Source: Hyphomicrobiales bacterium (GTDB lineage Bacteria > Pseudomonadota > Alphaproteobacteria > Rhizobiales > Rhizobiaceae). Taken from it: a stretch of 44,477 nt of DNA. The stretch is taken from contig JAFKJU010000041.1 of assembly GCA_017305935.1 (NCBI GenBank), positions 1 through 44,477 on the forward strand. Direction: 5' to 3'. The notes under the pieces are model-generated. The model was not told the DNA's origin and did not search any database. It saw only the letters and a list, made by a program, of their open reading frames with translations. Position 1 is the stretch's first letter. Every line of letters begins with the position of its first letter. A program made the position numbers and the translations under genes. This document shows, in pieces, positions 2,175 through 6,025 of the stretch.

Positions 2175-2200
2175 AACTCGGGCCACGCCGGAATTGTTCC
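2175..2200 (-). promoter_or_regulatory. EcfG-type promoter for treZ
   Basis: Reading the minus strand, GGAAC (2200-2196) is followed after 17 bases by AGTT (2178-2175). This matches the alphaproteobacterial general-stress consensus GGAAC-N16/17-CGTT with one mismatch in the -10 element. The start of transcription would lie near 2168, about 27 bases before the GTG start of treZ. Confidence 0.55.
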
Positions 2201-2271
2201 CGCAGCGGGGCGGCAAAACGACGCCCCCGCAAATGGCGGGGGGCGCGGCTTCCATCATGCCGATCAGCCGC

Positions 2272-3126
2272 TCACATCAGGCGGCGGCTGGCGGTGGGGT
2301 CGGTCGGGGCGGTCTCCGCCGATGACGTCGTCTGCTCGGATGTGGATTTGACCCGCAGGTTGTTCTGGACATGGCTGACGCCGGAGACACGCTCGGCCAG
2401 ATCTTCGGCGCGGCGCTTGTCGAAGCGGCTGGAGACATGGCCTGACAGCGTCACCTCGCTCTTGCTGACCGCCACTTCGATGTCGGAAGCGTCCAGCGAC
2501 GGGTCGTCGCTCAAGCGATCGTTGACGTCTTCAAGGATGCGGGTGTCGGAGCGCTGGTAGTTGCGCGGTCCCTTTCCCCGGAACTGGTCGGCACGGCGGC
2601 GGCTTTCGGCCTGCTCGTCGCCGAACCAGGAAGCAACCTCATCGCCGGCGCGATCCAGGAAACCGCGTTGTTCGCCGCGATAGCGGTCGCGCTCCATGGC
2701 GTCTCGGTCCCGGTTGTCGCTATCGCGGCCATGGGAATAGGCGCCACGCGCAGCGACGTCACGGTAGCGGGCGTCGCGCTGGCCGGCATAGGAGGAGCGC
2801 ATGTCGCGACTGGCGCCGCGGCCGGCATTGTAGCCGGCATCGCCATAGCCACGATCCCAGTCACGTTCATCGGTGGTAAAGCTGCCGCCACGACCGTAAT
2901 GCGGCGCGTTCGGCTGGTTGCGCAGGCCTTGGTTTTCCTGGTCGCGGCTCCAGCCGCGCGCCATGGACGGCCTGTCGCGGTCGCCATACTCGCCGAAGTC
3001 GTAATATTCGCCGCTGCGGCCGTAATATCCGCCTTCCGAGGAGCCACGTTCCCGCACATCGTGATCGCGCTCGTGGCGCGCGGGATCCTGCTGATATCCT
3101 CCGGAGGAATAGGGATTGTTTGCCAT
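2272..3126 (-). CDS. BON-domain protein with Arg/Gly/Tyr-rich N-terminal region
   Basis: This 284-residue protein starts at an ATG with AGGAGA 6 bases upstream. Residues 1 to about 160 are of low complexity, rich in Arg, Gly, Asp, Tyr and Ser, with no signal peptide. An SWFGD motif (166-170) precedes a BON domain at about 193-262, recognisable by the pattern around EVTLSGHVSSRFDKRRAED and the following GV..V.NNL.V. BON domains are thought to bind membranes or other surfaces, and proteins with SWFGD motifs plus BON are common in alphaproteobacterial stress regulons. It sits between treZ and the EcfG-like sigma factor on the same strand, with its own EcfG-type promoter. The exact function is unknown; a stress-protective envelope or surface role is inferred. 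Confidence 0.85.
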   Translation of the reverse strand: MANNPYSSGGYQQDPARHERDHDVRERGSSEGGYYGRSGEYYDFGEYGDRDRPSMARGWSRDQENQGLRNQPNAPHYGRGGSFTTDERDWDRGYGDAGYNAGRGASRDMRSSYAGQRDARYRDVAARGAYSHGRDSDNRDRDAMERDRYRGEQRGFLDRAGDEVASWFGDEQAESRRRADQFRGKGPRNYQRSDTRILEDVNDRLSDDPSLDASDIEVAVSKSEVTLSGHVSSRFDKRRAEDLAERVSGVSHVQNNLRVKSTSEQTTSSAETAPTDPTASRRLM

Positions 3127-3178
3127 TGCGTGTCTCCTTCAATTGGTGCCCTGTCATCTTCGATCAGAACGAGGGCCC

Positions 3179-3203
3179 AACTGCGCTGCCCATGGCTTGT
3201 TCC
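3179..3203 (-). promoter_or_regulatory. EcfG-type promoter for the BON gene
   Basis: On the minus strand GGAAC (3203-3199) is followed after 16 bases by AGTT (3182-3179), one mismatch from GGAAC-N16-CGTT. It lies about 50 bases before the BON start codon at 3126. The -10 variant AGTT is the same as at treZ. Confidence 0.5.
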
Positions 3204-3325
3204 CGAGAATATCCAAAAACCGGGACGGCAAAAGCATTTCCAGCGGCAGCGGAATCGCCTCGGCGTCGGACAATGCGGCAAAAAGATAGGGCATTTCCGG
3301 TAAACCCGCGCTCACCGGAAACACC

Positions 3326-3829
3326 CTAGATCTCCTCGCCGAGTTCCAGCAACAATTGCCGGCGGGCGCGATTAAGGCGACTTTTTACCGTGCCGATCGC
3401 GCAATCGCAGATCTCCGCCGCCGTCTCGTAGCTTTCACCGAGAACGACGACGAGGGTGAGGATCTCGCGATACTGGTCGCCGAGCTTGCTGAAGGCGACC
3501 TCGACCTCGCGGGCCCGGGCGCTCCATTCCTGGGTCGCGTCGAGGCTCAAGCTGTCGCTGGCGCAGTTCTCGAGGCCGGGCACCTCGCGGCTGCTGATCT
3601 TCACACGCGTATAGAAAGTGTTGCGCATGATGGTGAACAGCCAGGATTTCAGGCGTGTTCCCGGCTCGAACTTGTCGAGATTGGCGAGCGCCTTGACCAG
3701 CGTTTCCTGCACGAGATCGTCGGCGTCGACCGGATCACGGCAGAACGTCCGCGCGAAGGCGCGCAAGGCCGGAATGAGCTTGACGATATCATCCCGTGCG
3801 AGTTCAACGCTCGGCTGTAGTTCTGACAC
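3326..3829 (-). CDS. ecfG: EcfG-like (general stress) ECF sigma factor
   Basis: This 167-residue sigma-70 family protein has region 2 at about residues 18-80, with DADDLVQETLVKAL and the FEPGTRLKSWLFTIMRN stretch typical of the EcfG (ECF15) group. Region 4 is at about 108-160 and contains the helix-turn-helix part GTVKSRLNRARRQ. It would direct RNA polymerase to GGAAC-N16/17-CGTT promoters, and several of these sit around it, including one before its own gene, which implies autoregulation. EcfG is normally held by the anti-sigma factor NepR and released by phosphorylated PhyR. No phyR is visible here, so this may be a second EcfG copy, as occurs in rhizobia. Assignment to EcfG rather than another ECF group rests on the FEPGT motif and the promoters. 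Confidence 0.85.
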   Translation of the reverse strand: MSELQPSVELARDDIVKLIPALRAFARTFCRDPVDADDLVQETLVKALANLDKFEPGTRLKSWLFTIMRNTFYTRVKISSREVPGLENCASDSLSLDATQEWSARAREVEVAFSKLGDQYREILTLVVVLGESYETAAEICDCAIGTVKSRLNRARRQLLLELGEEI

Positions 3830-3869
3830 CGTTTATGACCTTTCAGCGTGCGGGGAGGTGACGAACCTC

Positions 3870-3894
3870 AACGTGGCTTCGCGAAATTGGTTCC
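3870..3894 (-). promoter_or_regulatory. EcfG-type promoter for the sigma factor gene
   Basis: On the minus strand GGAAC (3894-3890), 16 bases, then CGTT (3873-3870): an exact consensus match. It is about 40 bases before the sigma factor ATG at 3829, so the sigma factor probably activates its own gene. Confidence 0.75.
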
Positions 3895-3904
3895 GGGCCG
3901 AACG

Positions 3905-3930
3905 GGAACCAACAATAGCGTTTCCGCGTT
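3905..3930 (+). promoter_or_regulatory. EcfG-type promoter for the divergent 129-residue gene
   Basis: GGAAC (3905-3909), 17 bases, CGTT (3927-3930): an exact consensus match. The predicted transcript starts near 3938 and the GTG start follows at 3988. Its -35 element is 10 bases from the -35 element of the sigma-factor promoter on the other strand, so the two are back to back. Confidence 0.75.
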
Positions 3931-5261: not shown

Positions 5262-5270
5262 GCGCGCCGA

Positions 5271-5525
5271 TCAGTGCGAGACGGCGTTGGAACCCGCCAG
5301 AGCCATCGCCCGCGCGCGCCGTGGCGACGCAACGGCGGACATCGCGCCTCTCAGCGTTTGCGAACGCAAGACAATACGGGCGCCGTCGCTTTCGCGCTGC
5401 TCGCAGTAGGCGCTGGCTGCCTGCAATGCCAGATCGTAGCAGGGATAAGACGCGGAATGGTAGCCATCGGCAACGAATACCCAACCGTTGTCCGCCGGCA
5501 GGATATCGCAATAGACATGAGTCAT
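5271..5525 (-). CDS. Small DUF2188-like protein
   Basis: An 84-residue protein starting at an ATG with AGGAGA 5 bases upstream. The N-terminal half (MTHVYCDILPADNGWVFVAD) and the following A-rich helix resemble DUF2188-type small proteins, in which a Trp-containing beta hairpin is followed by a helix. The C-terminal part is Ala/Arg-rich and less constrained. Function is unknown. An exact EcfG-type promoter lies about 24 bases before the start, and the gene is divergent from the DUF2934-like gene, which has its own EcfG-type promoter. Induction in stress or stationary phase is therefore likely. The family assignment is by pattern only. Confidence 0.75.
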   Translation of the reverse strand: MTHVYCDILPADNGWVFVADGYHSASYPCYDLALQAASAYCEQRESDGARIVLRSQTLRGAMSAVASPRRARAMALAGSNAVSH

Positions 5526-5548
5526 GGGGGTCTCCTTCCGCCGCTTCC

Positions 5549-5573
5549 AACGAAGGAGCCGTGAAGTTGTTCC
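5549..5573 (-). promoter_or_regulatory. EcfG-type promoter for the DUF2188-like gene
   Basis: On the minus strand GGAAC (5573-5569), 16 bases, CGTT (5552-5549): an exact consensus match. The start codon at 5525 follows at the usual distance, with AGGAGA between. Confidence 0.75.
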
Positions 5574-5646
5574 CCGTATGGGGTAAGATTTTTCATGTAG
5601 GCCGTTTTTGTCGCACCGCGGAATCTTTCCAACCGCCGCGCTCTAT

Positions 5647-5671
5647 GGAACTATCGTCATGCGTCGTCGTT
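5647..5671 (+). promoter_or_regulatory. EcfG-type promoter for the DUF2934-like gene
   Basis: GGAAC (5647-5651), 16 bases, CGTT (5668-5671): an exact consensus match. The predicted transcript starts near 5678, about 25 bases before the ATG at 5703. Confidence 0.75.
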
Positions 5672-5702
5672 AAGATGCGTCATGACACGGGGAGATCGAT
5701 CC

Positions 5703-5942
5703 ATGACGGAATCCGTCTATGAACGCGTAAAAAAACGTGCCTACGAACTTTGGGAAGAAGAAGGCCGGCCCTGGGGCAGGGACATGATCCATTGGGAACG
5801 CGCCCACCAGGAAATAGCTGCCGGCAACGAAGCGGCGCCCCCTATCCGCGTCGCCTCCGTCGAGACGGCGGACATCGTCGCGAGCGAGGCGGTCGCCACG
5901 GCCAAGGGACCGGCCAAGCGTGCATCGCGAAAGGCGGGCTGA
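5703..5942 (+). CDS. DUF2934-like small protein
   Basis: A 79-residue protein. The ATG at 5703 is preferred over 5682 because GGGGAGA lies about 7 bases upstream and the conserved domain begins right after it. Residues 3-35 (VYERVKKRAYELWEEEGRPW onward to the HWERA stretch) match the DUF2934 signature: a helical domain with RAYELWE, GRPxG and HWxxA. The C-terminal half is Ala/Lys-rich and resembles the basic tails of DNA-associated proteins, though this is only a compositional remark. DUF2934 proteins are widespread in stress-induced gene sets of rhizobia and their function is not known. The exact EcfG-type promoter upstream supports stress control. Confidence 0.85.
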   Translation: MTESVYERVKKRAYELWEEEGRPWGRDMIHWERAHQEIAAGNEAAPPIRVASVETADIVASEAVATAKGPAKRASRKAG

Positions 5943-6000
5943 GCGTCGACGCCGTTCCGCACCGGTAAAGCCAAAGCCCTCGGGAAAATTTCCAGACGGC

Positions 6001-6025
6001 GGAACACGCATACGGAACGGGCGTT
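6001..6025 (+). promoter_or_regulatory. EcfG-type promoter upstream of glgA
   Basis: GGAAC (6001-6005), 16 bases, CGTT (6022-6025): an exact consensus match. The predicted leader to the glgA ATG at 6140 is about 108 bases, longer than for the other genes in this set. Confidence 0.65.

Follow-up and report, generated by a model that had tools for sequence, protein, structure and literature searches.

Among the closest described relatives of the locus analyzed here, a cluster of putative stress genes around a sigma factor gene at positions 2175-6025 of contig JAFKJU010000041.1 from a Hyphomicrobiales bacterium (Rhizobiaceae), are the canonical PhyR-NepR-EcfG systems, in which nepR and ecfG most often form one operon (PMC4814048). 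Half of the completed alphaproteobacterial genomes surveyed have at least two EcfG copies, a multiplicity whose role that survey leaves unexplained (PMC3892343). Two such paralogues are Sinorhizobium meliloti RpoE5 (SMb21484), with an unannotated RsiA-like open reading frame (ORF) beside its gene that has already been noted in text and figure legend (PMC6180224), and Rhizobium etli EcfG2 (PF00052), a non-canonical EcfG with a stress role (PMC3892343, PMC3188799), in whose vicinity the authors reported seeing no anti-sigma gene (PMC3892343). Extra NepR-type proteins have been described as well, i.e., NepR2 of Sphingomonas melonis and the NepR paralogues of Methylobacterium extorquens, and those with demonstrated binding bind PhyR (PMC6599016, PMC4814048). 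RsiA1 and RsiA2 of S. meliloti bind RpoE2 (PMC4814048). Trehalose and glycogen genes can be under EcfG control, as in the S. melonis cluster of treY, a glucanotransferase gene, treZ and glgX, for which we know of no description of a second sigma factor or NepR-like gene (PMC6599016); trehalose genes are also under EcfG in Bradyrhizobium diazoefficiens. Trehalose and glycogen genes under EcfG, non-canonical EcfGs and extra NepRs are hence already known. RpoE5/EcfG2-type sigma factors are not known to have an undisputed anti-sigma factor.

The window, i.e., the whole stretch of 44,477 nucleotides that was analyzed, is all of one contig (C75) of a 6.55-Mb genome in 108 contigs. From sequence comparisons we propose, with a probability of roughly 0.6, that the locus is a stress-regulon cluster arranged around a second EcfG-type (ECF15) sigma factor, driven by promoters of the general stress response and provided with its own NepR-like brake. 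Seven transcription units carry an EcfG-type promoter. The initial annotation had listed seven sites of the form GGAAC-N16/17-(C/A)GTT here; all are present on the strands given, and five are exact, the treZ and BON sites ending in AGTT. The features are as follows, with promoters taken from the motif scan, and G001 (same genus) and G002 denoting two relatives.

270-2141, minus strand: treZ, malto-oligosyltrehalose trehalohydrolase (TIGR02402, 700.9 bits against a cut-off of 538.8, for the long ORF)
2175-2200, minus strand: treZ promoter, GGAAC-N17-AGTT, with a matching site in G001 (GGAAC-N17-AGTT) and G002 (GGAAC-N16-TGTT)
2272-3126, minus strand: BON-domain protein with an SWFGD motif (PF04972, 1.2e-19; NF033157, 1.8e-14)
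3179-3203, minus strand: BON promoter, GGAAC-N16-AGTT, same form in G001
3287-3328, minus strand: intrinsic-terminator-like hairpin directly 3' of the sigma gene, 19 pairs and a T-rich tail (consensus scan only)
3326-3829, minus strand: ECF15-type sigma factor, non-canonical EcfG paralogue of the RpoE5/EcfG2 subgroup (PF04542, PF08281, PF22029; tree)
3870-3894, minus strand: sigma promoter, exact, N16
3905-3930, plus strand: promoter of the 129-residue ORF, exact, N17
3988-4377, plus strand: 129-residue protein, divergent from the sigma gene, no family assigned
4523-4696, plus strand: NepR-like small protein of 57 amino acids, probable anti-sigma factor (profile search, hhalign, PDB matches, dN/dS)
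4704-5261, plus strand: methylpurine-DNA glycosylase (PF02245, 1.3e-58, for the ORF from 4677; start from a small codon-usage gene finder)
5271-5525, minus strand: 84-residue small protein, labelled DUF2188-like in the initial annotation, a label that stays unconfirmed with no Pfam match at E 10
5549-5573, minus strand: promoter of the 84-residue ORF, exact, N16
5647-5671, plus strand: DUF2934 promoter, exact, N16
5703-5942, plus strand: DUF2934 protein (PF11154, 8.8e-13, for the ORF from 5682; start ATG 5703 proposed, same gene finder)
6001-6025, plus strand: glgA promoter, exact, N16
6140-7615, plus strand: glgA, glycogen synthase, start ATG 6140 (NF001899, 665.6 bits against 459)

The earlier grouping of treZ, glgA, the BON gene and genes for small proteins around the sigma gene stands, but it had overlooked the NepR-like ORF and the DNA glycosylase gene. 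For treZ, GTG 2141 is a more likely start than ATG 2258, the start of the long ORF, because the promoter falls within that ORF. The sigma promoter stands back to back with the promoter of the divergent run of 129-residue ORF, NepR-like gene and glycosylase gene, the -35 boxes being 10 bp apart. The same gap occurs in G001; as a general rule it was dropped, since it is known from these two genomes only. The 129-residue protein has no Pfam match above cut-off, and tblastn found relatives in 30 of the 80 named loci (the best 80 of 448 encoding stretches; ortholog counts below refer to these loci plus G001 and G002). It ends in a notable stretch of 13-14 residues; an FPASDP motif general among its relatives was rejected, the strict pattern matching only 8 of the 30.

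In common with the canonical module, the locus has an ECF15 sigma factor, the promoter form GGAAC-N16/17-CGTT and a small NepR-type protein encoded near the sigma gene. It differs in lacking phyR, in having the NepR-like gene on the opposite strand rather than in the sigma operon, and in the NepR-like sequence itself, where the Tyr, Lys/Arg and Asp/Glu columns of canonical NepRs are mostly replaced. S. meliloti RpoE5 belongs to the same sigma group (55% identity to the window sigma) and has the same promoter form, and its RsiA-like ORF, opposite SMb21687, also lies on the strand opposite to the sigma gene. There, however, the NepR-like gene is convergent and downstream, and the nine annotated features of the 10-kb region (an incomplete table) include no glg or tre gene. 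R. etli EcfG2 shares the status of a non-canonical paralogue; its gene, for which we took RHE_RS26680 on p42f by similarity and plasmid (the record lacks the PF00052 tag), has no NepR-like ORF in 20 kb and no EcfG-type motif within 350 nt upstream. In the open-access literature searched, we found no account of the conservation of the NepR-like family across Rhizobiales, of its changed columns or of the gene cluster.

The sigma factor matches PF04542, PF08281 and PF22029, all above cut-off, which places it in the ECF15/EcfG family, and its best match of solved structure is 5uxx_A, an entry that also contains a NepR chain. It is not the general-stress EcfG: a canonical phyR-nepR-ecfG locus, with the nepR-ecfG operon arrangement, is present on contig C29 and encodes a different sigma factor, to which the window protein is 41% identical. 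In a phylogenetic tree the window sigma, S. meliloti RpoE5 and R. etli EcfG2 fall together, separate from canonical EcfGs, in a 40-row group with a support (SH-aLRT, approximate likelihood-ratio test) of 85; the tree has 67 rows and was built by a quick method with no bootstrap, leaving several basal rows unordered and long branches flagged. Two loci first labelled canonical (L018 and L087_5638) fall within the paralogue group. The candidate role of general-stress EcfG was rejected on the C29 locus and the tree, and there is little doubt that the window sigma is an EcfG paralogue. Its dN/dS values of 0.03 and 0.06 indicate strong purifying selection. Elsewhere in the window, a third ECF sigma factor (17985-18524, plus strand) gives a PhyR_sigma2 match and is 34% identical to the window sigma; a 257-residue ORF overlapping its gene (18511-19284), with no Pfam match, could be a candidate anti-sigma gene.

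The identity of the sigma factor bears on who reads the promoters. An exact motif site precedes phyR (C29:18617-18593), and canonical EcfG probably reads the same motif. Between the two sigma factors, the region-4 helix-turn-helix residues are 66% identical and region 2 is 45% identical, so that the motif alone cannot tell which of them reads the seven promoters; with the window sigma being a paralogue of 41% identity, the cluster need not be read by it. Of the regulon originally proposed, the EcfG-type nature of the promoters is upheld by spacer specificity, intergenic enrichment and conservation, and a joint response of the genes is still an inference.

Across the genome, 121 exact GGAAC-N16/17-CGTT sites occur in 6.55 Mb, a rate that predicts 0.82 sites for the window and 0.04 for the 2.16-kb stretch in which five exact ones lie. 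The Poisson probability of this cluster is 8e-10 for the stretch and about 2.5e-6 genome-wide, for a stretch chosen post hoc. The raw count shows no excess (149 sites for the reversed pattern), and therefore spacers and gene placement were compared in 2.0 Mb of the same genome, with genes called by the small gene finder; this sample came from contigs with listed sites, which may inflate total density while leaving the spacer contrast nearly unaffected. Beyond the window, spacer 16 gave 35 sites (25 intergenic) and spacer 17 gave 17 (12 intergenic), jointly 37 of 52 intergenic, whereas the 14 other spacers between 10 and 25 gave 6-14 sites each, with 0-3 intergenic. Enrichment upstream of genes, which had been suggested as a check, was seen in this sample: 21 sites are intergenic and precede a called gene of their own strand by at most 250 nt, against a mean of 2.2 and a maximum of 7 in 200 draws with permuted boxes. 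The spacer contrast and this upstream excess argue that the motif acts as a promoter signal in the genome, and the promoters are almost certainly real EcfG-type promoters. In the 2.04 Mb examined, the window cluster exceeds every other group of sites in density at spans of 2.2 and 4 kb; at 20 kb it is tied by a group on contig C2 with six sites. That second group (L184, G000:C2:20001-40000) has its six exact sites in 18.3 kb (1563-19819), one of them inside a called gene, and includes treY. Sought as the partner of treZ, treY lies at 31667-34312 of C2 with no site directly before it.

The promoters are also conserved in relatives. In G001, all seven sites recur before the same genes with the same strand, spacer and -10 letters, a recurrence that the motif-based search does not build in. 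The box bases are identical in 63 of 63 positions, a figure partly built in because the sites were found by the motif, against 76 of 114 spacer bases. G002 has exact sites for the sigma, DUF2934 and glgA genes and one with a single mismatch for treZ, i.e., four of the five promoters whose genes are nearby; no site was found at its 84-residue gene, and the BON and 129-residue genes are not nearby. Upstream of paralogue sigma genes the motif is exact in 34 and has one mismatch in 51 of 89 loci, together 85 of 89; its distance to the start is 28-100 nt at 77 of these 85. R. etli EcfG2 is among the four loci without it. The 14 other spacers gave one exact match in total and one-mismatch sites in 2-17 of the 89 loci. 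For S. meliloti rpoE5, the site found by the scan is the published promoter with a mapped start (PMC6180224), which falls about 7 nt past the -10 box. As for the -10 element of these sigma sites, CATT replaces CGTT in 31 of 31 Mesorhizobium loci (e.g., L059 and L068), with GGAAC fixed, and in 48 of the 85 sites overall, S. meliloti rpoE5 included.

Among the other genes, orthologs of the DUF2934 gene have the motif in 12 of 12 cases (7 exact, 5 with one -10 mismatch; other spacers at most 2 of 12) and those of the 84-residue gene in 11 of 12 (4 exact, 7 with one -10 mismatch; at most 2 of 12). For glgA the count is 8 of 15 (5 exact, 3 with one -10 mismatch; at most 1 of 15), and an exact motif precedes 15 of 31 ORFs like the 129-residue one, G001 included, where other spacers reach at most 7 of 31 (one mismatch, spacer 12). 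Conservation is weak for BON orthologs (none exact and 5 with one -10 mismatch among 15, other spacers at most 3), a count that leaves out L038, L040 and L120, where the upstream slice ran past the locus edge. No exact motif precedes the glycosylase gene in four cases, and none was found for four treZ orthologs because the long-ORF start used lies upstream of the promoter.

The 57-codon ORF between the 129-residue ORF and the glycosylase gene scores as a gene by codon usage. Its dN/dS is 0.19 against G001 and 0.36 against G002; read in frame +2 the value is 1.3, and frame +1 is interrupted by a stop. The Pfam NepR model does not match it even at E 10, well short of the curated cut-off, and matches 6 of 13 family members weakly (best E 0.0011). 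Against the PDB at E <= 10, the ORF has two matches only (E 0.12 and 0.17), and both are NepR anti-sigma factors; with a profile built from 13 relatives, the E values of this pair improve to 0.005 and 0.008. When this profile was aligned with 19 canonical NepRs by hhalign, the probability was 95.5% and the score 46.7 over 37 columns around a V-P-D-R core, while the ten best printed of 30 column shuffles scored no more than 12.8. Conversely, a canonical-NepR model run on six-frame ORFs of the loci recovered the 19 canonical NepRs and 59 weaker matches, 55 of them in the diverged family (three places are present twice in these counts). The hidden Markov model of the family was seeded with a NepR-like regular expression, which makes the family count partly circular. 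In the BLAST search with the window ORF, the PDB search and the search with the canonical model, the family was not chosen by that expression, although the 13 cores of the canonical model were picked with it and some rows of the profile used on whole genomes were first seen through it. Taken together, these comparisons make it very likely that the small ORF encodes a NepR homologue of a diverged family.

Members of this family (E < 1e-3) occur in 53 of the 89 paralogue-sigma loci (S. meliloti counted twice), in all 53 on the strand opposite to the sigma gene: 23 upstream, 29 downstream and 1 with an open frame overlapping the sigma gene. Beyond these, two genomes (G005 and G034) have a member on the same strand, downstream of the sigma gene. 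The number is probably a lower bound because most loci reach 5 kb each way and some matches lie at the very end. Over 61 whole genomes, the 13-ORF profile gave five strong matches (E <= 3.5e-10), each at most 1 kb from a paralogue sigma gene; the profile itself contains three of them, and those in G005 and G034 are independent. Of 16 weak matches, 14 lie beside canonical EcfG genes and those in G013 and G020 do not. A strong match is thus present in 5 of 11 genomes with a paralogue (at least 54% identity) and in none of the 50 others (Fisher 8e-5), or in 5 of 12 when the former are taken to include G020, to which L018 belongs (49% identity). In the window and in G001, the NepR-like gene lies downstream of the promoter of the 129-residue ORF. 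No terminator was recognized on the plus strand between the two genes in the window scan, and folding of the intervening stretch is as in shuffled sequences (z 0.19), so the NepR-like gene can be co-expressed from that promoter. The glycosylase gene starts 7 nt 3' of it, and the two are probably co-transcribed.

The changed residues of the family concern columns for which mutational data exist in S. melonis. There, alanine at L32 or Y36 of NepR, or at L31 or F35 of NepR2, weakened negative regulation, while alanine at R33 did not (PMC6599016). Columns were matched by the L-R-x-x-Y spacing and the hhalign alignment, with the S. melonis sequence itself outside the alignment. All 19 canonical NepRs have Tyr in the presumed Y36 column, whereas none of the 52 family members does (Leu 46, Met 3, Val 2, Ile 1), which means that the Tyr/Phe relevant in S. 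melonis is missing, and the presumed L32 column has Ile/Val in 44, Leu in 7 and Thr in 1, so the L32/Y36 signature of the PhyR interface is not found in the family. A basic column, Lys/Arg in 19 of 19 canonical proteins, is Ala in 33 of 52 and Arg in 2, and the LL-x-x-L-D/E of canonical NepRs becomes LA-x-x-LQ. Replacement of the Y36-type residue argues against a PhyR antagonist of the NepR2 type and for a different partner. We lean slightly toward the prediction that this partner is the paralogue sigma.

A working model would then be the following. Upon stress, PhyR would release canonical EcfG from NepR, and the freed EcfG, followed by the paralogue itself, would transcribe the sigma gene, treZ, glgA and the small stress genes. 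In unstressed cells the 57-residue NepR-like protein would clamp the paralogue sigma and limit its self-amplification. Since its gene lies downstream of the divergent EcfG-type promoter in the window species, the brake may be made together with its target and give negative feedback. Glycogen synthase and TreZ would steer carbon into glycogen and trehalose, and protection of envelope and DNA would come from the products of the BON, DUF2934 and glycosylase genes. We infer the brake function only from neighbourhood and co-occurrence.

Several observations weigh against this model. No NepR-like ORF was found in 36 of the 89 paralogue loci, R. etli EcfG2 included, although most of the stretches searched stop at 5 kb. 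The co-occurrence test relies on profile rows that were selected via the sigma gene. An EcfG-type promoter within 350 nt is not a feature of the NepR-like genes as a group (0 exact of 49, with no spacer effect); the idea that each has its own promoter failed, with 2 and 3 one-mismatch sites at spacers 16 and 17 against 0-6 elsewhere, and feedback by co-transcription is therefore at best limited to loci with an intervening 129-residue ORF. Of the three NepR paralogues of M. extorquens, two bound PhyR, but binding to an EcfG was seen with none (PMC4814048). Finally, overexpression of S. meliloti RpoE5 revealed one putative target (PMC6180224); the paralogue may therefore contribute little, and the reader of all seven promoters may be canonical EcfG.

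The last point leads to the alternative that survives best, which we nevertheless consider unlikely: the cluster simply belongs to the canonical EcfG (PhyR/NepR) regulon, with a paralogue sigma that is no more than a minor amplifier or a vestige and a small ORF that has nothing to do with this sigma. S. meliloti RpoE5 is itself a target of RpoE2 (PMC6180224, PMC3616915), and the motif, as noted before phyR, and the similar helix-turn-helix residues fit this explanation. Against it stand the strong purifying selection on the paralogue and the EcfG-type promoter, exact or with one mismatch, kept in 85 of 89 loci, as well as the separate targets and phenotype of R. etli EcfG2 (PMC3892343). Less probable still is a role of the NepR-like protein as a PhyR antagonist, in the manner of Sphingomonas NepR2 or Methylobacterium META2p0735; it would then bind PhyR, free canonical NepR and damp the whole response without contacting the paralogue sigma. 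The binding of PhyR by S. melonis NepR2, a negative feedback regulator (PMC6599016), and by two of the M. extorquens paralogues (PMC4814048) provides precedent for this; the interface residues that are mostly not kept, and the location of all five strong matches beside a paralogue sigma gene, speak against it. Chance matching in a GC-rich genome has next to no claim on the promoter cluster, for although the unimpressive raw count and a window site inside an opposite-strand gene would suit it, the spacer and intergenic test rejects it for the motif as a whole, if not for single sites, and the genome-wide cluster probability and the conservation in relatives add to this.

Further exact sites lie elsewhere in the window. 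The initial annotation had counted seven exact sites over its full length; the correct number is nine, the sites at 20946 and 38594 having been overlooked.

20946-20970, plus strand: exact site before a single-domain response regulator gene (start near 21057, set by eye; site and gene within 20946-21506)
38594-38619, plus strand: exact site within a called gene of the opposite strand, probably a chance match
38949-38973, minus strand: exact site about 56 nt before the gene of a 133-residue protein (38491-38892)
44097-44121, minus strand: exact site in a gap between called genes, some 155 nt upstream of the ORF 43941-42625

A single-domain response regulator feeds the general stress response in Caulobacter (PMC5964349). 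Other genes on the plus strand include a bacterial alpha-2-macroglobulin gene (21833-27235) adjoining that of a penicillin-binding protein with a BiPBP_C domain (27242-29326), and Mrp-type Na+/H+ antiporter genes (10665-16728; Pfam matches on two ORFs).

Returning to the proposed cluster with its own sigma factor and brake, the conserved diverged NepR beside paralogue sigmas provides a concrete candidate partner for these sigma factors and a predicted target set. A more general and tentative suggestion, to which we give less than even odds, is that across many Rhizobiales RpoE5/EcfG2 sigmas pair with a re-tooled NepR without the PhyR-binding signature and form a PhyR-insulated stress branch, in which canonical EcfG would turn the sigma gene on while a separate brake, released by another signal, would gate a glycogen and trehalose regulon. 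Such a partner could explain how a single stress system divides into branches that do not cross-talk. Should the brake prove insensitive to PhyR, looking for the signal that releases it would be a well-defined task.

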